In this document: positions 232 through 55,652 of the stretch, piece by piece
How positions within the stretch are numbered: the first letter of the stretch is position 1
Layout of the letters: the number at the start of each line of letters is the position of its first letter
Origin: Streptomyces diastaticus subsp. diastaticus
Lineage (GTDB): Bacteria; Actinomycetota; Actinomycetes; Streptomycetales; Streptomycetaceae
Length of the DNA: 64,000 bases
Assembly (NCBI RefSeq): GCF_011170125.1
Contig: NZ_BLLN01000003.1
Coordinates: 1,240,001-1,304,000 of the forward strand
Reading direction: 5' to 3'
Notes under the pieces: model-generated
Databases searched by the model: none
Seen by the model: the letters and a program-made list of their open reading frames with translations, nothing else
What the model was told of the DNA's origin: nothing
Translations under genes and position numbers: made by a program

Positions 232-317
232 GCCCCTTTTGGCCTCAAGCGCCGGCCAGGCTGGAAGTTGGCCGGACGGGCTAAGAGCTGGCCGGACGGT
301 CTGGGTGCAGGCCCCGG

Positions 318-776
318 CTAGCTCTTCTGTTGCGTGGTGATGCGGAAGACCGGGTGGTCCGGGCAGGCAGCCAGGAGGTCGGCGTCGGGCGACTGGGCGG
401 TGACGCCCTGGAAGTAGCCGTTCACCTCCCACCCCCAGCGGGCGAGGTAGGTGCGGAGGATCTCGGCCTTGAGGGCGTTGTCGGGCAGCTCCTCGGCGTG
501 GAAGGCGCGGGTGCGGCGGCCCAGTCGTAGTTCGCCGCCGCCCGCCGCGCGCATGTTCCGTACCCACTGGGAGTGGCCGCGGGCCGAGACCAGGTACTCC
601 GCGCCCTCGTGGGTGTGCGGGTTGACCGGGATGCGCTGCGGGGTGCCGCTGCGGCGGCCGACCACCGTCAGTTCGGCGGAGCCGAGGAGGCTGACACCGA
701 GGCGGGCGAGCCGGCCGACGAGGGAGTTGAGGCGGACGGCGAAGGGCGTGGCCTGGCGGTAGTACGGCGTGGACAT
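318..776 (-). CDS. Nitroreductase-family deazaflavin (F420)-dependent oxidoreductase
   Basis: A 152-aa protein of the Ddn/DUF385 type: 'TVVGRRSGTPQRIPVNP' near residue 40 and 'EYLVSARGHSQWVRNM' are the characteristic strand and loop around the F420/FMN site. Such proteins reduce small substrates with F420H2 in the cytoplasm; the substrate here is unknown. I chose ATG at 776 because an in-frame extension back to 1040 would run through the operator region and the divergent regulator. The gene is divergent from the TetR regulator at 904, with repeated dyads between them, so it is probably repressed by that regulator. Confidence 0.85.
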   Translation of the reverse strand: MSTPYYRQATPFAVRLNSLVGRLARLGVSLLGSAELTVVGRRSGTPQRIPVNPHTHEGAEYLVSARGHSQWVRNMRAAGGGELRLGRRTRAFHAEELPDNALKAEILRTYLARWGWEVNGYFQGVTAQSPDADLLAACPDHPVFRITTQQKS

Positions 777-44896: not shown

Positions 44897-46321
44897 ATGT
44901 GTGATTCCGTCGATCCGGTCATAGCGCCCAGCGGCACCCTCCTCGGCCTGCTCCAGCGGGGCAGGGGGGACGGCACGCTGCACGCCCTGACCGCCCCCCG
45001 TTCCGAGGCGCTCGCCGCCCTCGACCAGTGCGTCCTGCGCGACCCCCGCCACGACTGGCGGGTGGAGAACCGCTCCCTCTACTACGCCCGGCTCTACCTC
45101 GACCTGGACGGCTCCCTGGACGCCGTCGAGGCGCACCTCTTCGCGCCCGAGGACCACGCCGCCCCGGGCGAGGAACGCACCGGCCTGGCCGTCAGCGTCC
45201 TCGGCCACCTCGCCTCCTACGGTCGCGAGGACGCCCTGGCGCTCCTGCGCCGGTACGCGGCCCACGGCGCCAACTGGCCCTGGGCCCTGGACGAACTGGC
45301 CGTACGCGACGACGACGCCGCCCTCGCCGCGCTGGCCGCCCCCGTCCTCGCCCGGTTCCCCGCCACCGCCGAGGGCGAGGCGGAACTGGCCGCCGCGGCC
45401 GGCGACAGCTACGAACCGAGGCCCTGGCACCTCTGGGCCGAGGACCCCGACCCGGCGGTCGGCCCGCGCGTCAAGGCGGCCCTGGAGCGGTCCTCCTTCG
45501 GCCTGTGGCAGCGCCAGCTCACCGCCCCCGACCGCCCGCAGTGGAGCGTGGACGGAGTCCTGAGCTGGGCCCAGGAGGGCCACGACCGCGGCAACGACCG
45601 CCACGTGCCCGCCGCCCGGTGCCTGGCCACCGTCGCCACCGCCGCCGACCGGCCGGCGCTGCTGGCCGCCGCCCGCGGCGGACTCGACGGGGCGCGCGCC
45701 GCCGCCCTCAGCCACCTCGCGCGCACCGGCGACCCGGCGGCGCTCGACCTCATCGAGGCCGCCGTCGCCGACGGCTCGCCCGTGGTCCGCGAGGCCGCCG
45801 TCGAGTCGCTGGGGCGGATGGAGGGCGACACGGTCCTCGCCCGTGCCCGTCGCTGGGCCCCGCGCCCCGACGCCCTCGGCTCCGCCGCCGGACGACTCCT
45901 CGCCTGCCGGGGCCGGACCGGCGACGGCCCCCTGGTCCTCGCCGCGCTGCGCGAAGCGGTGCGCGGCCACGGCCCCGACGGGCCCGCCCTGTGGTGCCTG
46001 GTGGACGGCGCCGGGCGCCTCGGCATCGCGCAGGCCGCGCCGGTCCTGCGCCACCTCTACCGCGAGACGGCCTCCTCCCACCTGCGCGGCCGCACCGCCC
46101 AGGCGCTGGCCGCCACCGACGCCTCCTTCGCCAGCGGCTTCGCCGTCGAATGCCTCTGGGACTGCGAGGAGACCACCCGCGAGGTAGGCGCCCGCCACGC
46201 CGCCACCGGCGACCAGCGCGTCGTCGGCCGCCTCCGCCGCCTGGCCGCCGACCCGGCCGAGGAGGCGGAGGTCCAGACCGCGGTCCGCAGCCGCATCGGG
46301 CCGGACACGGCGGCGATCTGA
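44897..46321 (+). CDS. HEAT-repeat protein
   Basis: A 474-aa soluble protein made of helical repeats. The clearest HEAT units are at about 275-310 ('ALSHLARTGDPAALDLIEAA', 'SPVVREAAVESLGRMEGDTV') and again after 370. Such scaffolds bind proteins or nucleic acid; the closest activities in bacteria range from lyases to regulatory subunits, and nothing here decides. ATG 44897, with GTGAGG upstream. It is followed by a 386-bp gap and then the SMC-type operon, which has its own promoter, so a functional link is only a possibility. Confidence 0.8.
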   Translation: MCDSVDPVIAPSGTLLGLLQRGRGDGTLHALTAPRSEALAALDQCVLRDPRHDWRVENRSLYYARLYLDLDGSLDAVEAHLFAPEDHAAPGEERTGLAVSVLGHLASYGREDALALLRRYAAHGANWPWALDELAVRDDDAALAALAAPVLARFPATAEGEAELAAAAGDSYEPRPWHLWAEDPDPAVGPRVKAALERSSFGLWQRQLTAPDRPQWSVDGVLSWAQEGHDRGNDRHVPAARCLATVATAADRPALLAAARGGLDGARAAALSHLARTGDPAALDLIEAAVADGSPVVREAAVESLGRMEGDTVLARARRWAPRPDALGSAAGRLLACRGRTGDGPLVLAALREAVRGHGPDGPALWCLVDGAGRLGIAQAAPVLRHLYRETASSHLRGRTAQALAATDASFASGFAVECLWDCEETTREVGARHAATGDQRVVGRLRRLAADPAEEAEVQTAVRSRIGPDTAAI

Positions 46322-46707
46322 CGAGCCGCCGGGGCAGGGGGACCCCGGCGGTCGCACGGCACCGCGGCCCGGGCCCGCGGAGCACCGTCGCCGGCCGCGT
46401 GGGCCAGAGACGAGGCGGCCCGGCACGGGCGGGGCACGGCGCACCGAGACCCGACGCCGCACCGGCGGCGGCGCGAGCGACGCCGACGCGGCGACAGGCC
46501 ATGTCACGTCCTTTTCTGGCACCTTGAGGACGTGGCCGGACCGGGCGACGAGGGAAGGCGCGGAGAGGGCACGGCCACCGCGCCCCACGGGCCCTTCGGC
46601 CGGCCCGGGCCCCGCGGCACCCCGCCCCCGCCCCGGCGGCCGCCCGCACCCGTCTCCTCGACGGTACGTTTCGCCCGATGTCGGAGCGAGGATCTAGGCT
46701 GTCCCCC
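46322..46707 (+). promoter_or_regulatory. Gap and leaderless promoter of the SMC-type operon
   Basis: 386 bp without a gene. A -10 TAGGCT at 46695-46700 lies 7 nt before GTG 46708, so the operon mRNA probably starts at the start codon. The -35 is poorly defined. Upstream, CACGTCC (46505-46511) and GGACGTG (46528-46534) form a 7-bp inverted repeat that could be a regulatory site. Confidence 0.5.
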
Positions 46708-48243
46708 GTGACTTCGCCCGCCTCCACGGAACCCGCTCCGTCCCAGCTCAGCGCGGGGCCGCGCCCGGCGCCGGGCCCGGCCGCCGACGAGGGCCTGGCG
46801 CGGCGGCTGCGGGCGCTGGCCTGCACGGCGCCGCTGCACGACCTGGACACCCGCAAGGCCAACCTGGCGGGGGAGTACGCGGGGTACGCGATGGCCGAGG
46901 TGGCCCTGGCCGCCATCGACCTGGTCACGCTCCACATGGACTTCGACACCGGCGCCGACCACGAGCAGATAGTGGCCAGGCTGCTGCCCCGCATCGCCGC
47001 CCAGGCCCCGGCCCGCCCCGCCGCCGAGCACGAGCGGGTCGCCCGCTGGGTCCTGGAGAACCTCGTCAACGTCGGCAGCGTCGACCGCGGTTTCCGCGCC
47101 GTGTACGGCACGTTCGCGCCCGACGGGAGCTACGTCCGCCGCGACTACGACTTCAAACTGGTGGAGGAGGTCCCCGGCCGCGGCGGCAGCGTCTACCTCC
47201 GCACCACCGACGAGGCGGTCAACGTCCTGGTCGGCGCCCTCGACACGGACGTCACCAGCGCCCAGATCGCCGCCGAGGTCAAGCTGGAGGTGCTCATCAA
47301 CCGGGGCCGCCTCGCCGACGCCCAACTCGCCGCCGAACAGGCCCGGTACCGCACCGTCCAGTACTCCGAGACGCTCCGCCGCGCCCTCGACGCCACCCGG
47401 CGCAACGTCCGAGCCGTCGACTGGCTCGGCGCCGTCCCCGACATGATCGCCGAGGCGCTCGACCACGTGGCCGACCGCTACCGCCACGAGAACGCCATCC
47501 TCACCAACATCCGCAAGGCCCGTGACGAGTCCGAGGACCCCGAGCAGAAACGGCGCGCCGCCGAACTGGTCGACATCGTCAAGGACTGCATCCGCCGGCA
47601 CACCCAGCTCCAGGCCCGGCTCCTCGAAGCGGGCCCGCTCTTCCGCGCCGAGCAGGACCGCCAGGCGTTCGCCGCCCCCGCCGCCCGGACCGGCGTCGAC
47701 CTCTACGGCCAGCTCCTCGCACCGCTGCTGCCGCTCCCCGTCGAGCAGGCCTCGCGCGCCACCGACGCCTGGTTCGCCCACGGCACCGGCCTGCGCACCC
47801 CCGCCTCGGTCCGCGTCGGCGACCTGGTCGACCTGCTGCTCACCCCGCCGGTCGAACGCGCCCACCTCGGCGCCGAGATGCCCGAGCCGGACCTGATCGC
47901 CACCCCGGACGACAGCCGCTTCAGCGAGGAGCAGCTCGCCACCGCCCGCGACCTCCTCGACCTCGAGTGGGACGCGCCCCGCCGCCTCTCCGGACTGCTG
48001 GCCGAGGCCCGCCGCCGCGACGACGACCCCTACGGCCTGCCGTACCTGGTGGCCCTCATCGCGGTGCACGCGGCCTCCCCGCCGGTCGGCACCGCCTACC
48101 GCCAGGGCGAGCGGCGCCTGCTGTTCGCCGTGGACGACGGCACCGAACTCGACGACCCCCACTTCGGCGGCGCCGACCTGATCGTCGGCAGCGCCCTCCT
48201 CGACGCCGCGGGCATGGCCGCCGACCGCACGGAGTCGGCGTGA
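46708..48243 (+). CDS. Kleisin-like subunit of an SMC-type complex (MukF/MksF/JetA-like)
   Basis: A 511-aa, almost entirely helical protein. A disordered Pro/Ala N-terminus (1-28) is followed by a wHTH-like region ('LARRLRALACTAPLHDLDTR'), 'NVGSVDRGFRAVYGTFAPDG', then 'YLRTTDEAVNVLVGALDTDV' and a long helical middle ('LADAQLAAEQARYRTVQYSE'), as in MukF and JetA (DUF3375-like) proteins. It is the first gene, before a KITE-like and a giant SMC-like gene, the MukF-E-B order. I chose GTG 46708 because a -10 sits 7 nt before it; ATG 46678 would put the -10 inside the gene. The family call rests on architecture and context. Confidence 0.75.
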   Translation: MTSPASTEPAPSQLSAGPRPAPGPAADEGLARRLRALACTAPLHDLDTRKANLAGEYAGYAMAEVALAAIDLVTLHMDFDTGADHEQIVARLLPRIAAQAPARPAAEHERVARWVLENLVNVGSVDRGFRAVYGTFAPDGSYVRRDYDFKLVEEVPGRGGSVYLRTTDEAVNVLVGALDTDVTSAQIAAEVKLEVLINRGRLADAQLAAEQARYRTVQYSETLRRALDATRRNVRAVDWLGAVPDMIAEALDHVADRYRHENAILTNIRKARDESEDPEQKRRAAELVDIVKDCIRRHTQLQARLLEAGPLFRAEQDRQAFAAPAARTGVDLYGQLLAPLLPLPVEQASRATDAWFAHGTGLRTPASVRVGDLVDLLLTPPVERAHLGAEMPEPDLIATPDDSRFSEEQLATARDLLDLEWDAPRRLSGLLAEARRRDDDPYGLPYLVALIAVHAASPPVGTAYRQGERRLLFAVDDGTELDDPHFGGADLIVGSALLDAAGMAADRTESA

Positions 48244-48325
48244 CCGCCGCCCGCCGCGCCCCGTCCCCCCGCCTCCCGGCCCCGTACCGCCGCCCGGGCA
48301 CGTCCCACCACCAGGAGCACCACCC

Positions 48326-49207
48326 GTGACCGAGCAGAGCACCGAGCCCGTCCGGGAGAACGCCGGCGCCCCGGCGCCGCACGCCCCCGCCGTCACCCCC
48401 GCCGACGCCGCCGACGCCGCCCGGCTGGTCTCCTTCGGCCTCCAGCCCCGGCTCCAGCCCGCCCGGGACGCCGAGTACGGAGAACTCCTGCGCCGGTACC
48501 GCGAGGACCCGCCCTTCGCCCGGCTCGCCGACGCCGTCGCCACCGGACTCGGCCTGATCGTCCTGGAGGTCTCCGACCGGGCCGGGATGGCCGTGACCGC
48601 CGCCGAGGACTCCGTCTTCGCGGTCCGCATGGGCGACTACGCCCGGCGCGCCTCCACCGACTCCGCCGACCGTTTCCTGCACGGCCTGGCCCATCTCGCG
48701 CTGGCCGCCATGGCGTTCCCCCGGCCCGAGGACCTCGCCGACGACGGCTACATCGGCCGCGTCACCGTCAACGGCGTGGACGCCTTCGTCCGCCACGCCT
48801 GCCGCAAGCTGGAGGAGCACGCCGAGGAGCGGGGCGACAACACCGACCCGGTCTCCGAAGCCCCCGGCCTGGAGGCGGCCTGGCGCGTCTGGGCCCGGCG
48901 CAGCTCCACCGGCGCCACCAAGGACGCCCGCCGGCTCGCCGGTTCCACCACCGGCATCGTCGGCAAGGCCGCCGCCTTCCTCACCGAGTCCGGCTTCCTC
49001 CAGCGCACCGGCGACGAGGCCGGCGGTACGTACCGCACCACCGCCCGCTACCAGCTCCAGGTCCGCGACCTCGCCGGCGGCGCCGCCATGAGCGAACTGA
49101 TCGCCCTCGGCATCGTCCCCGTCAGCGACGGCACCGCCACCCTGCTCCCGCCCGACGAGGGCGACGACCTCGACCTGGTCGCCGACGCCGGACTGCCCTT
49201 CTCCTGA
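48326..49207 (+). CDS. KITE-like winged-helix subunit (MukE/MksE/JetB-like)
   Basis: A 293-aa protein. After a disordered 30-residue start, 'ARLVSFGLQPRLQPARDAEY' and 'LRRYREDPPFARLADAVATG' lead into a first winged helix, and 'RLAGSTTGIVGKAAAFLTES' with 'GFLQRTGDEAGGTYRTTARY' looks like a second. Tandem winged helices and an acidic tail are features of MukE/MksE/JetB proteins, which clamp the kleisin and DNA. GTG 48326 follows AGGAG. It is 82 bp from each neighbour in the operon. Confidence 0.75.
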   Translation: MTEQSTEPVRENAGAPAPHAPAVTPADAADAARLVSFGLQPRLQPARDAEYGELLRRYREDPPFARLADAVATGLGLIVLEVSDRAGMAVTAAEDSVFAVRMGDYARRASTDSADRFLHGLAHLALAAMAFPRPEDLADDGYIGRVTVNGVDAFVRHACRKLEEHAEERGDNTDPVSEAPGLEAAWRVWARRSSTGATKDARRLAGSTTGIVGKAAAFLTESGFLQRTGDEAGGTYRTTARYQLQVRDLAGGAAMSELIALGIVPVSDGTATLLPPDEGDDLDLVADAGLPFS

Positions 49208-49289
49208 CCGGCCCGGCCGCCCGCCCACCGCCTGCCCCCGCCGTCCGGCCGCCGCCGGACCGTACCGATCGCAACGAGAGTCCGCCGCC

Positions 49290-52200
49290 ATGTACGAGCT
49301 GTCCCGGGTCCGTCTCTACTCCATCGGACCCGCAGGCGCCCGGTACGCCGACACCGTCCTGGACCTGCGCGGAGTCGGCAGGGCCGTACCCGAACCGGCC
49401 CCCGCGCAGGCGGAGTTCTTCGAGGAGGAGCCGGTCGGGCCGCCCCGCAGGCCCGCACCCGCCGGCGTCCTCTTCCTGGAGAACGGCGGTGGGAAGTCGG
49501 TGCTGCTCAAGCTGATCTTCTCGGTGATGCTGCCGGGCCACCGCAACACCCTCGGCGGTGCCAGCTCCGGCGTGCTCCGCAAGTTCCTGCTCGCCGACGA
49601 CTGCGGCCACGTCGCCCTGGAGTGGCAGCACACCCTCACCGGCGAGACCGTCGTCGTCGGCAAGGTCAGCGAATGGCGCGGCCGCCAGGTCTCCCACGAC
49701 CCGCGCAAGTTCGCCGAAGCCTGGTACTCCTTCCGCCCCGGGCCCGGCCTCAGCCTCGACTCGCTGCCCGTCGCCGAGTCCACCACCGTCCCCGCACCCG
49801 TCGAAGGCGCCTCCGGGGCACGCGGCAGGCGCCGCACCATGAAGGGGTTCCGCGACGCCCTCACCGACGCCGGGAAGTTCTACCTCCACCTCGACGTGCA
49901 CTGGGAGGAGACCCACGAGCGCTGGACCGAGCACCTCGGCGAACTCGGCCTCGACCCCGAACTCTTCCGCTACCAGCGGGAGATGAACGCCGACGAGGGC
50001 GAGGCGGCCGGCCTCTTCGCGGTCAAGAAGGACTCCGACTTCACCGACCTGCTGCTGCGCGCCGTCACCGACACCCGCGACACCGACGGCCTGGCCGACC
50101 TCGTCCACGGCTTCGGCCACAAACTCGGCCGCCGCGCCGAGCTCATCGCCGAACGCGACTTCACCGCCGGCTCCGTCGACCTCCTCGGCCGCATCGTGGA
50201 GACCACCGCCGAACGCGACCGCAGCCGCGACATCCACGCCGCCGCCGAACGCCGCACCCGCACCCTCGCCCGGGGTCTCGCTGTCCGCGCCCGTCACGAA
50301 CGCGCCCGCACCGGTGACCTCGCCCAGCAGGTCACCACCGCCGCCCACCGCGTCACCGAGGCCGACGGGGCCCGCTCCCACCGCGCCCTGACCGCCGCCG
50401 AACTCGCCTACCGGCACGCCTCGCTCGCCCTCACCGTCGCCGAGAAGGCCGCCGCCGCCCAGCGCCGCGAACTGGCCGACGCCCGCACCCTGCACGCCGC
50501 CTGGCAGGCCGCCGAGGCCGTACTGCGCCACCGCGCCGCCGCCGACCGGTCCACCCGCGTCGCCGACGCCATCCGCGAGGCCGAACGCGACGCGGCCCCG
50601 GCCCTCGCCGCCCGCTCCCAGGCCGCCACCGCGCTCGTCCGCGCCCTCGACGCCGCCGCCCGCGAGGGCGAGGAGGTCGCCACCGAACTGGAGGAGCGCG
50701 CCGCCCACCTCCAGGAGGAGGGCGAGGCCGCCCACCGCGACGCCACCGCCGCCGCCACCGAGGCCCAGCGCGCCCGCAGCGAGACCGGCCACCTGCGCCA
50801 GCGCCTCGCCGAGGTCGAGCAGGAGACCGAGGAGGCCGTACGCGCCGGCTGGCTGGAGGCCGGCGCGGCCGACGCCGACCCCGCCCGGGCCGCCCTCGCC
50901 GCCACCGACGCCGAGCAGGAGGCGGCCGCAGCCTGGGAGAGCGCCCGTGAACGCGCCCACCGCGCCGCCGACCACGCCAAGGAGTGCGCCGCCGACGAGG
51001 CCCGCGCCGACCTGGCCGCCGCCCGCGCCCACGACGCCGCCGACGCCGCCGTCCGCGCCCACGACGCCGAGCAGCGGACCGCCGCCGTCCTCGCCGCCGA
51101 ACCGCGGCTCGCCGAACTCCTCGGCCTGCCCGCGCCCGACGGCGACGAGGGCCCGCTCACCGCCGGTGAACTCGACCGCTCCGCCGACCGCCTCGCCGCC
51201 CTGCTGGACGAGGGCGTCACCGCCGCCGAACGCCAGCTCTTCGACCTGCGCACCGCCGCCGCCGACGACACCCGCATCCTCGGCGCCCTCGGCGACGGCG
51301 GGCTGCTGCCGCCCGGCCCCGACGTCCTCGCCACCGTCGAGTACCTCGGCGAACAGGGCATCCCGGCCCTGCCCGGCTGGCGCTACCTCGCCCAGGCCGT
51401 CGACCCGGCCGAGCACGCCGCCGTCCTCGCCGCCCGGCCCGAACTGGTCGACGGCGTCGTCATCACCGACCCCGACACCCACAGCCGCGCCCGCGCCGTG
51501 CTCTCCGACGCCGCCCTGCTGCCCCGCTCCGCCGTCGCCGTCGGCACCTCCGCCGCCCTCCTGGCCCCCGCGCGGACGGCCGGCGACGCCGAGGAACAGG
51601 GCGTCTTCCTCGTGCCGCCGAACCCGGCCATGCACGACGAGTACGCCGCCGACGAGGAACGCCAGACCCTGCGCGCCCGCGCCGCCGCCCGCGACGAGGA
51701 GATCCGCGCCCTGGCCGCCCGCCTCGCCAAGGACCGGGAGCTGGCCGCCCGGCTCACCTCCTGGCGGACCGGCTGCCCGGCGGGGCACCTCGCCCAGCTC
51801 CGCGCCACCGCCGACCACGCCCAGGAGCACGCGGACACCGCCGCCCACACCCTCCAGCGGGCCCGGGCCGCCCGCGCCGAGGCCGACGAGGCGGCCACCG
51901 AGGCCGCCCGCGTCCGCGACGACAGCCAGGAACGCGCCCAGCGGGCCCGCCGAGCCGCCGACGCCCTCGCCGGTCTCGCCCACCGCCTGCGCGAACGCCC
52001 CCGCTGGCAGGCCGCCCTGCGTGAACTGGCCGAGACCGCCGCCACCAGCGAGGAGCGCGCCCAGACCTGCCTGGACCGGGCCCGCGCCGCCGACGAGGAC
52101 CGCCGCGCCGCCCAGCGTGCCGCCGACGACGCCCGCCGTACCGCCCGCGCCCTGCGCGCCGAACGCGCCGAGATCGCCGGAGTCCCCGACGACGCCCAAC

Positions 52201-53891
52201 TCCCCGCCGCCCCCGACACCCCGCGCGTCTCACTGCCCGCGCTGCGCGAGGCGTACCGCTCCGCCTCCCAGCTGTACGAGAAGGTCGGCGTCGGCGCCGA
52301 CCTCAGGGCGGAGCAGGCCCGCGCGGAGAGCGACGAGTCGGCGGCCCGCGCCGAACTCGACCGGCTCAGCAACAAGGTCCGCAACCGCGCCGCGCAGCTC
52401 CTGGAGGACCCCGACGGCGCCGACGGGCCCTCCCGGCAGGCCGCAGCCGCCCGCGCCGAGGCCCTCGTCCAGATGCTGGAGACCCGCTCGGCCGCCGCCA
52501 GCGAACAGCTCGGCCGGCTGCGTGGCGAGGCCGAACGGCACGCCCCCGAGGAGGGCGAGGCCCACACCGAGCTGCCGCCTGAGCAGGTGCCGGCCGACGT
52601 CGAGGCCGCCCAGCGGCTGTTGCGCGCCGCCACCGCCGAACTCGCCACGCGCACCGACGAACTGGCCGCCGCCCGCGAGGCACACGGCGAGCTCCTGCAC
52701 GCCCACCGCGCCGCCGAGGAGGCCACCGCCGGCTTCGAGGAGACCGCCGCGCTCCTGCGCGACCTGCTCCGCGACCCGCAGGACGCCCGGGACACCGACG
52801 AGGAGCGCGGTGCCCAGCCCCCGGAGCAGTACCCGGGCAGCCTCGACGAGGCCCGCCGCGTCGCCGCCGAGGCCCGCCGCTCCCTGCGCGGCTGCGCCGC
52901 CGACCTCACCGCCGCCGAATCCGCGCTCCGCGAGACCAGCGACATCCTGGTCCGGCACGCCAACTCCACCCGCTACGAGCAGGTCCGCACCCCTGCCCGG
53001 GCCCAGATCCGCGAACTGCCCGCCGCCGCGCTGCCCGAGCACGCGGCCAAGTGGGCCGAGGCGTTCGCGCCCAGGCTGCGGGTCCTCACCGACGAACTCG
53101 ACCAGCTCGAACGCAACCGCGACTCGATCGTGGACCGCCTCCGCGGACTGGTCGAGTCCTCCCTCGCCACCCTCCGCTCCGCCCAGCGCCTGTCCCGGCT
53201 GCCCGAAGGGCTGGGGGAGTGGTCGGGCCAGGAGTTCCTGCGCGTCCGCTTCGAGGAGCCCGACCAGACCACGCTGGTGGAGCGGCTCGGCGAGGTCATC
53301 GACGAGGCCACCAGCACCGCCGTCCGCAAGAACGCCGACCTGCGCCGCGACGGCATGTCGCTGCTGCTGCGCGGCGTCCACGCCGCCCTCCAGCCGCGCG
53401 GCGTCTCCGTCGAGATCCTCAAGCCCGACGCCGTGCTGCGCGCCGAGCGCGTCCCCGTCGGGCAGATGGGCGACGTCTTCTCCGGCGGCCAGCTCCTCAC
53501 CGCCGCCATCGCGCTCTACTGCACGATGGCCGCCCTCCGCAGCAACGACCGGGGCCGTGACAAGCACCGTCACGCCGGCACGCTCTTCCTCGACAACCCC
53601 ATCGGCCGTGCCAACGCCACCTACCTGCTGGAGCTCCAGCGTGCCGTCGCCGACGCCCTCGGCGTCCAGCTCCTGTACACCACCGGCCTCTTCGACACGA
53701 CCGCGCTCGCCGAGTTCCCGCTCGTCATCCGGCTCCGCAACGACGCCGACCTCCGCGCCGGGCTGAAGTACATCAGCGTCGAGGAGCACCTGCGTCCCGG
53801 TCTGCCCCAGCAGGACCCGCAGGAGGAGACGGTGCACGGGGAGATCACGGCCACCCGGATGTTCCGCAAGCCCCAGTCCGACGAGGAGTGA
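49290..53891 (+). CDS. Giant SMC-like ATPase (MukB/MksB/JetC-like)
   Basis: A 1533-aa protein with ABC half-sites at the two ends and long coiled coils (about 290-590 and 790-1330) around a central hinge-like region at about 600-790. Walker A is at 64-70 (E-N-G-G-G-K-S). The signature S-G-G-Q is at 1398-1401, and the Walker B strand ends Asp1435-Asn1436-Pro, so the usual catalytic Glu after the Asp is Asn. A Pro/Glu-rich insertion (about 30-58) precedes Walker A. ATP binding and head engagement look intact; hydrolysis may be altered or use another residue. Last gene of the operon; no JetD or MksG follows. Confidence 0.85.
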   Translation: MYELSRVRLYSIGPAGARYADTVLDLRGVGRAVPEPAPAQAEFFEEEPVGPPRRPAPAGVLFLENGGGKSVLLKLIFSVMLPGHRNTLGGASSGVLRKFLLADDCGHVALEWQHTLTGETVVVGKVSEWRGRQVSHDPRKFAEAWYSFRPGPGLSLDSLPVAESTTVPAPVEGASGARGRRRTMKGFRDALTDAGKFYLHLDVHWEETHERWTEHLGELGLDPELFRYQREMNADEGEAAGLFAVKKDSDFTDLLLRAVTDTRDTDGLADLVHGFGHKLGRRAELIAERDFTAGSVDLLGRIVETTAERDRSRDIHAAAERRTRTLARGLAVRARHERARTGDLAQQVTTAAHRVTEADGARSHRALTAAELAYRHASLALTVAEKAAAAQRRELADARTLHAAWQAAEAVLRHRAAADRSTRVADAIREAERDAAPALAARSQAATALVRALDAAAREGEEVATELEERAAHLQEEGEAAHRDATAAATEAQRARSETGHLRQRLAEVEQETEEAVRAGWLEAGAADADPARAALAATDAEQEAAAAWESARERAHRAADHAKECAADEARADLAAARAHDAADAAVRAHDAEQRTAAVLAAEPRLAELLGLPAPDGDEGPLTAGELDRSADRLAALLDEGVTAAERQLFDLRTAAADDTRILGALGDGGLLPPGPDVLATVEYLGEQGIPALPGWRYLAQAVDPAEHAAVLAARPELVDGVVITDPDTHSRARAVLSDAALLPRSAVAVGTSAALLAPARTAGDAEEQGVFLVPPNPAMHDEYAADEERQTLRARAAARDEEIRALAARLAKDRELAARLTSWRTGCPAGHLAQLRATADHAQEHADTAAHTLQRARAARAEADEAATEAARVRDDSQERAQRARRAADALAGLAHRLRERPRWQAALRELAETAATSEERAQTCLDRARAADEDRRAAQRAADDARRTARALRAERAEIAGVPDDAQLPAAPDTPRVSLPALREAYRSASQLYEKVGVGADLRAEQARAESDESAARAELDRLSNKVRNRAAQLLEDPDGADGPSRQAAAARAEALVQMLETRSAAASEQLGRLRGEAERHAPEEGEAHTELPPEQVPADVEAAQRLLRAATAELATRTDELAAAREAHGELLHAHRAAEEATAGFEETAALLRDLLRDPQDARDTDEERGAQPPEQYPGSLDEARRVAAEARRSLRGCAADLTAAESALRETSDILVRHANSTRYEQVRTPARAQIRELPAAALPEHAAKWAEAFAPRLRVLTDELDQLERNRDSIVDRLRGLVESSLATLRSAQRLSRLPEGLGEWSGQEFLRVRFEEPDQTTLVERLGEVIDEATSTAVRKNADLRRDGMSLLLRGVHAALQPRGVSVEILKPDAVLRAERVPVGQMGDVFSGGQLLTAAIALYCTMAALRSNDRGRDKHRHAGTLFLDNPIGRANATYLLELQRAVADALGVQLLYTTGLFDTTALAEFPLVIRLRNDADLRAGLKYISVEEHLRPGLPQQDPQEETVHGEITATRMFRKPQSDEE

Positions 53892-54929: not shown

Positions 54930-55652
54930 TCAGGAAGAGTGGGTCAACTCCCGGCTCCGCTCCGAGCCTTGAGTGCCGGAGCGTTCCGCCGTGCCGATCC
55001 GGCGGGCCGCGGCCCTCACGCCGGAGCCGCCTCCGGACCGGGCACAGGCGCCGCGGTCCACCCCGGGGGCGTCACCCGCCGGCTCGCCCCCGCGCTCTGG
55101 ACCCTTGCCCGCGCGCTCCGGTGCCGGGACCGGGTCACCGCCGTCCCGCCCGCGCCGCTCCCCGTCGGAGGCCGCGGACCGCGTGCCCGCCGACGGGTCG
55201 GGTATCCGGACGCCGGAGCGGGCCGCCCGCCGGGCCGCGCGGCGCTCCCGGCGGCGTTCGCGGCGCAGCTCCCGGGCCGTGCTGCCCGGTGCCGAGACCA
55301 CGCCGTGCCGCTGGTTCCACACCTGGCGGGTGACCCAGACGTCCAGCACCGCCCAGGTCGCCGCGATGGTGCTGGCCACGCCGCTGAGCACCATCGGGAA
55401 GGCCAGCCAGGACTCCGCCAGCGTGGCCAGGAAGGCGACCATCGCCTGTATCAGCGTCAGCGCCACGATGAGCACCGCGCGCACCGCCGCCGTACGCACC
55501 GGATCGGGCATCCGGGGGCGCACCGCGGGCTCCTCCACCCACAGCGGCGGCCGGTCCGGCTGTCCGCTCCCCTCCGCCCGGCGCGGTCCGGGCACCCGCC
55601 CGCCCGGCTCGCCCCGCTCCGCCGAAGTCCTCCGACGCTCCGCCGTCGCCAT
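54930..55652 (-). CDS. Membrane protein with two helices and charged tails
   Basis: A 240-aa protein. Helices at about 55-80 ('AVLIVALTLIQAMVAFLATL') and 84-107 ('WLAFPMVLSGVASTIAATWA') are followed by 'LDVWVTRQVWNQRHGVVSAP' and a very Arg-rich segment (RRERRRERRAARRAARS). The last 90 residues are low-complexity. ATG 55652 was preferred over an in-frame start at 55718. It is divergent from the conservon operon, 502 bp away; a role with it is not evident. Confidence 0.7.
   Translation of the reverse strand: MATAERRRTSAERGEPGGRVPGPRRAEGSGQPDRPPLWVEEPAVRPRMPDPVRTAAVRAVLIVALTLIQAMVAFLATLAESWLAFPMVLSGVASTIAATWAVLDVWVTRQVWNQRHGVVSAPGSTARELRRERRRERRAARRAARSGVRIPDPSAGTRSAASDGERRGRDGGDPVPAPERAGKGPERGGEPAGDAPGVDRGACARSGGGSGVRAAARRIGTAERSGTQGSERSRELTHSS

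Follow-up and report, generated by a model that had tools for sequence, protein, structure and literature searches.

The window analyzed here, a 64,000-nucleotide stretch of the genome of Streptomyces diastaticus subsp. diastaticus (contig NZ_BLLN01000003.1, positions 1,240,001 to 1,304,000), contained three consecutive open reading frames (ORFs) on the forward strand, separated by two 82-bp gaps and predicted to encode the kleisin (JetA), KITE (JetB), and SMC ATPase (JetC) proteins of a condensin-like complex (Table 1). Based on sequence similarity, jetABC is a relative of the anti-plasmid Wadjet type III system without its nuclease, JetD, and is not a quirk of one strain. An earlier, sequence-only reading of this DNA had proposed a MukFEB/JetABC-type SMC operon lacking a nuclease. 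The lengths and 82-bp spacing that it gave for three same-strand genes agreed with the ORF coordinates, as did its placement of Walker A (ENGGGKS) at residues 64 to 70 and SGGQ at residues 1398 to 1401 of the third protein, and the operon type was supported by full-length JetA3 and JetC3 matches and by a putatively MukF-like JetA model. The ORFs had coding-like GC by codon position, and of 60 further genomes in the genus, 59 had JetA orthologues with 82 to 91% identity (the exception was an assembly 82% complete), so the three ORFs are not chance occurrences. JetA of the window was 99% identical to that of Streptomyces sp. CZ24.

Table 1. Coordinates of jetABC and associated features in the window
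Feature	Position	Strand	Description
Promoter-like block	46668..46707	+	-10-like TAGGCT at 46695-46700, directly before GTG start
jetA-like kleisin gene	46708..48243	+	511 aa (amino acids); PADLOC JetA3 match, MukF-like model
jetB-like KITE gene	48326..49207	+	293 aa; retrieved by a profile shared with JetB of JetD-bearing loci
jetC-like SMC ATPase gene	49290..53891	+	1533 aa; PADLOC JetC3 match
JetC Walker A	49470..49514	+	residues 61-75; GGGKS in 57/57 JetD-less loci aligned
JetC signature motif SGGQ	53469..53510	+	residues 1394-1407; SGGQ in 57/57 JetD-less loci aligned
JetC Walker B	53574..53618	+	residues 1429-1443; reads LDNP

Compared to the PADLOC models, JetA matched JetA3 (PDLC00567; E = 1e-185, residues 24 to 508) and JetC matched JetC3 (PDLC00588; E = 0, residues 1 to 1532), both over the full length. 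JetB had no match in the Pfam, NCBIfam, or PADLOC libraries; JetB of JetD-bearing loci was likewise without a PADLOC JetB match in three of four cases and marginal in the fourth, and one JetB profile retrieved both JetB of the complete systems and JetB of the window. None of the three proteins matched a Muk, Mks, DUF3375, or DUF4194 family in Pfam or NCBIfam beyond chance level, and JetC had no match in Pfam, SMC_N included, up to an E value of 1. Of the profile searches proposed in the sequence-only reading, the one for JetC succeeded, and those for the MukF, MukE, DUF3375, and DUF4194 families gave no match. When the predicted JetA model was compared by VIA, MukBEF, MukEF, or MukF entries filled the top eight rows, so predicted JetA may resemble MukF. 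The two top Foldseek matches of the predicted JetB model lay in JetABC structures and were weak (E = 0.097 and 0.21).

No JetD/MksG-like gene was found among the scanned neighbor genes upstream and downstream of jetABC in the window, as the sequence-only reading had stated, and in searches of the whole genome neither JetD3 (PDLC00594) nor JetD_C (PF09983) had a match. The PDLC00594 search was positive in six strong-match control genomes and silent in 14 named control genomes; the PF09983 control was also positive, but its cutoff was passed by only three of five JetD3 proteins, making PDLC00594 the better test. PF09664 gave no match in this genome, and its control was silent too. JetD did not stand beside JetC in any of 79 Streptomycetaceae loci, of which 72 had the downstream side visible and 7 ended at a contig edge before the JetD place (some strains may occur in both the named and the unnamed set); a JetD conserved in close relatives, set beforehand as the outcome contrary to the sequence-only reading, thus did not appear in the synteny comparison. 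No trace of JetD was detected within 6 kb downstream (E value cutoff, 0.01) in 125 JetD-less loci, two of which had less than 200 bp to search. Strong JetD3 matches (E < 1e-49) occurred in 6 of 100 genomes (the window's own, 60 of the genus, and 39 others), comprising five with JetD-bearing loci and G075, in which JetD lay on a different contig from JetA; nine further genomes had weak matches (E = 2e-7 to 7e-4). The JetD-bearing type III loci of Streptomyces were separate, divergent copies in 5 of the 60 other genomes (L031, L032, L034, L036, and L037), with jetA, jetB, and jetC followed by a PADLOC JetD3 gene and, in L034, jetC in two frames. In two of these systems a large gene followed JetD3 (L031, 16796-18769, 657 aa; L032, 1400-3265, 621 aa); the two genes were related to each other, and the one in L032 had no PADLOC match.

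JetA matches were found in 62 of the 100 genomes, namely, the window's own, the 59 of the genus, and two of another family (G071 and G075, 34 to 46% identity). Within the family, 391 of 394 sampled Streptomycetaceae genomes, own included, had a match; one of these (G108) was a divergent copy (E = 1.2e-16) in a locus with JetD, leaving a JetA orthologue in 390 of 394. A class sample gave matches in 61 of 394 genomes, comprising 40 Streptomyces (own included), 19 Frankiaceae, Prauserella isguenensis, and one weak match. JetA matched 4 of 72,556 plasmid records, at 30 to 53% identity, and none of 50,697 phages, which argues for chromosomal fixation of the orthologues. The sensor kinase followed jetABC in 26 of 33 core loci, and in 13 single-contig Streptomyces genomes, 11 core jetABC copies were not in the terminal 10% of the chromosome, a region reported to hold more than 43% of the Lamassu and Wadjet systems detected in this genus (PMC10482375).

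All three genes were intact in 66 of the 79 Streptomycetaceae loci. Seven others were cut by contig ends, and three (L044, L056, and L216) had assembly gaps. Median ratios of nonsynonymous to synonymous substitution (dN/dS; Nei-Gojobori) were 0.197 for jetA, 0.229 for jetB, and 0.312 for jetC, over 2,140, 2,137, and 2,143 nonindependent pairs, and as judged from these ratios jetABC is under purifying selection. Two Frankiaceae JetC sequences deviated, one being short (L131) and one split (L135). In L058 (genome G012), jetA was truncated and jetB and jetC were replaced by unrelated genes, marking a lineage that lost the complex. The upstream block and the GTGACTTC start were kept in most of 38 Streptomycetaceae loci compared, so the GTG start at 46708 was preferred over an ATG at 46678. 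The promoter-like block ending at this GTG suggests a leaderless transcript.

The Walker B motif of JetC was LDNP in 63 of 63 aligned loci, JetD bearing and JetD less alike, and its asparagine is, on this alignment, a trait of the whole type III JetC group. SMC proteins usually carry a glutamate at this position. A canonical SMC was also encoded in the window's genome, separately from JetC, with a Walker B reading DE. No residue changes tracking the absence of JetD were detected (11 of 589 columns versus 72 of 1,213 in the control), and JetB N termini showed no obvious difference between JetD-bearing and JetD-less loci among those aligned.

Scanning of genome contigs by JetA alignment revealed JetD-less versions in other lineages. 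The 80 best loci were retained from 568 confirmed stretches; among them, JetD stood beside JetC in 9, and the JetC end was out of sight in 8. In Amycolatopsis, Prauserella, and their relatives, jetABC lay between uvrC-rapZ-CofD family-whiA and gap-pgk-tpi, with the identity of these gene families verified in L198. Where both sides were visible, 1 of 19 such loci had JetD (Tamaricihabitans, L198); where the view was limited to the gap side, 0 of 11 had it, and where it was limited to the upstream side, 1 of 7 did (A. rifamycinica, L173). JetD3 at this place (L173, 16707-17783; L198, 16651-17853) forms natural with/without pairs with relatives, most of which carry only JetABC there. A. rifamycinica nested among JetD-less relatives on very short branches, and its JetD may be a regain. 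Of 13 JetD-less Frankiaceae loci, 9 had the downstream side visible, and these shared a third context; JetD-bearing copies were also present in this family (L137, L138, and L141). Streptomycetaceae JetABC and Frankiaceae JetABC formed one clade each (support, 1.0), and the deepest branches of the JetABC tree carried JetD. Because the trees differed in where the Frankiaceae clade was joined (to JetD-bearing loci in one tree, 0.949; to Streptomycetaceae in a denser tree, 0.52), JetD may have been lost in a single event or in several.

A cellular role is favored by the near-universal presence and fixed position of the operon, by purifying selection, and by the lack of a nuclease, and the Wadjet III core has probably been retained as a second SMC complex that acts on the chromosome alongside canonical SMC. 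JetD would have been lost in or before the Streptomycetaceae ancestor, loss being assumed over its never having been present, and the kleisin-KITE-SMC core would have been retained by selection as a chromosomally fixed complex. JetA and JetB would bridge JetC dimers, and in an ATP-dependent cycle JetABC would entrap or extrude loops in the DNA of the cell itself, with loop action modeled on MukBEF and nuclease-free MksBEF and no cut following without JetD. In this scheme the complex would act on the chromosome, and it may have a role in segregation or spores. Pseudomonas aeruginosa MksBEF, which lacks a nuclease, is reported to contribute to chromosome organization (PMC10586767). More tentatively, an anti-plasmid Wadjet III may have turned, perhaps repeatedly, into a nuclease-free, chromosome-organizing condensin, as the core complex of nearly all Streptomycetaceae and at fixed places in Frankiaceae and in the Amycolatopsis/Prauserella relatives.

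Several observations weigh against a chromosome-acting condensin derived by nuclease loss. Since asparagine replaces glutamate in Walker B of all 63 loci, ATP hydrolysis and loop extrusion are uncertain. Three Streptomycetaceae loci (L058, L083, and L097) were broken without assembly gaps, and three genomes of the family sample (G172; G235, 71% complete; and G308) had no JetA match, so the complex is not essential. JetA was found in only 19 of 35 Frankiaceae genomes. Whether JetD was lost here or gained elsewhere depends on midpoint or assumed rooting, and the related MksBEFG of Corynebacterium glutamicum is reported to act on plasmids only (PMC7083940).

Alternatively, JetABC could recognize small circular DNA and hold it in check without a cut, through compaction or silencing, in a nuclease-free defense comparable to Smc5/6, which is reported to silence circular viral DNA (PMC10586767). 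An anti-plasmid system is the ancestor or sister group of JetABC, and a fixed defense stays compatible with the observed distribution. Such a defense was judged unlikely given near universality at a fixed place in one family and no plasmid or phage spread, unlike the patchy JetD-bearing copies. A defense in trans, in which JetABC recruits an unrelated, non-JetD effector encoded elsewhere, appeared improbable: jetC was followed by a PIN gene in one JetD-less locus (L164) and by a PADLOC PDC-S01 gene in another (L191), but ten genes scanned after jetC in nine loci without JetD included no shared replacement effector (GAPDH, Rieske, PIN, HupE, luciferase-like [two], MarR, hydrolase, DUF4143/AAA, and MFS types), and in Streptomycetaceae the next gene after jetABC was commonly antisense. 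A decaying, functionless Wadjet remnant, which the absence of JetD and the three broken loci might suggest, is scarcely credible and was already disfavored, given that most loci are intact (66 of 79), dN/dS is far below 1, the Walker A and SGGQ motifs do not vary, and the upstream block is conserved.

JetABC is close to several known systems. It shares with Wadjet type III (JetABCD) the full-length JetA3 and JetC3 models, gene order, and a homologous JetB, and differs in lacking JetD and in being a fixed core locus rather than patchy copies. Like P. aeruginosa MksBEF without MksG, for which origin by JetD loss has been proposed (PMC10586767), it is a nuclease-free kleisin-KITE-SMC operon beside canonical SMC; unlike MksBEF, it belongs to the type III lineage, has no Pfam Muk, Mks, DUF3375, or DUF4194 match, and has a function that is only predicted. 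With MukBEF it shares the kleisin-KITE-SMC order, a MukF-like predicted JetA, and the lack of a nuclease, but it has no MukB, MukE, or MukF match (Pfam and NCBIfam), and its genome also encodes canonical SMC. MksBEFG/EptABCD of C. glutamicum and Mycobacterium smegmatis is likewise a second SMC complex that actinobacteria have in addition to canonical SMC and, unlike JetABC, carries the nuclease MksG and restricts plasmids (PMC10123090, PMC7083940). JetABC differs from SMC-ScpAB in that JetC has no SMC_N match.

Studies of chromosome folding in Streptomyces have treated SMC as the one condensin responsible, with no second one named in the portion of a 2026 study available (PMC13121528), and deletion of smc in Streptomyces coelicolor is reported to cause no growth defect (PMC4255302). 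If the chromosome-acting reading is true, the best-studied sporulating bacteria have an overlooked second condensin, and a nearly universal second SMC complex would change the reading of smc deletion phenotypes. Because JetD-bearing and JetD-less versions share a chromosomal place in related Pseudonocardiaceae, jetABC also allows the proposed origin of MukBEF and MksBEF from a Wadjet system that lost its nuclease (PMC10586767) to be tested directly. Among the open-license matches listed, no paper describing a nuclease-free JetABC was recognized by title or the start of the abstract, and prior publication is possible.

Upstream neighbors of jetABC in the window encoded a HEAT-repeat protein (44897-46321, forward strand, 386 bp before jetA) and an ankyrin protein. 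In the basal loci L078, L080, and L208, the HEAT gene immediately preceded jetA, whereas in many others it lay farther off. Strong matches to its product were found in the 40 Streptomyces rows listed (own included) in the class sample of 394, and weak matches outside Streptomyces, in 12 genomes, did not track JetABC. The HEAT-repeat protein encoded upstream in Streptomycetaceae might be an extra, HAWK-like subunit, a lead only, since the matches outside Streptomyces do not follow the complex; kleisin-binding HEAT proteins (HAWKs) are described as so far known only in eukaryotes (PMC10512200). Downstream neighbors encoded a NIT/HATPase sensor kinase, a DUF742 protein, and a small GTPase, a conservon-like set; the longest ORF of the sensor kinase started at 54973, and its domains began about 1.4 kb further in. 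Assignment of an S. coelicolor tag by taking the downstream conservon to be cvn9 (SCO1631-SCO1634) failed, with SCO1631 being described as a helicase and SCO1633 as a Tat-dependent secreted protein. A tRNA-Leu gene (anticodon aag) was located at the left end of the window (248-327, forward strand).

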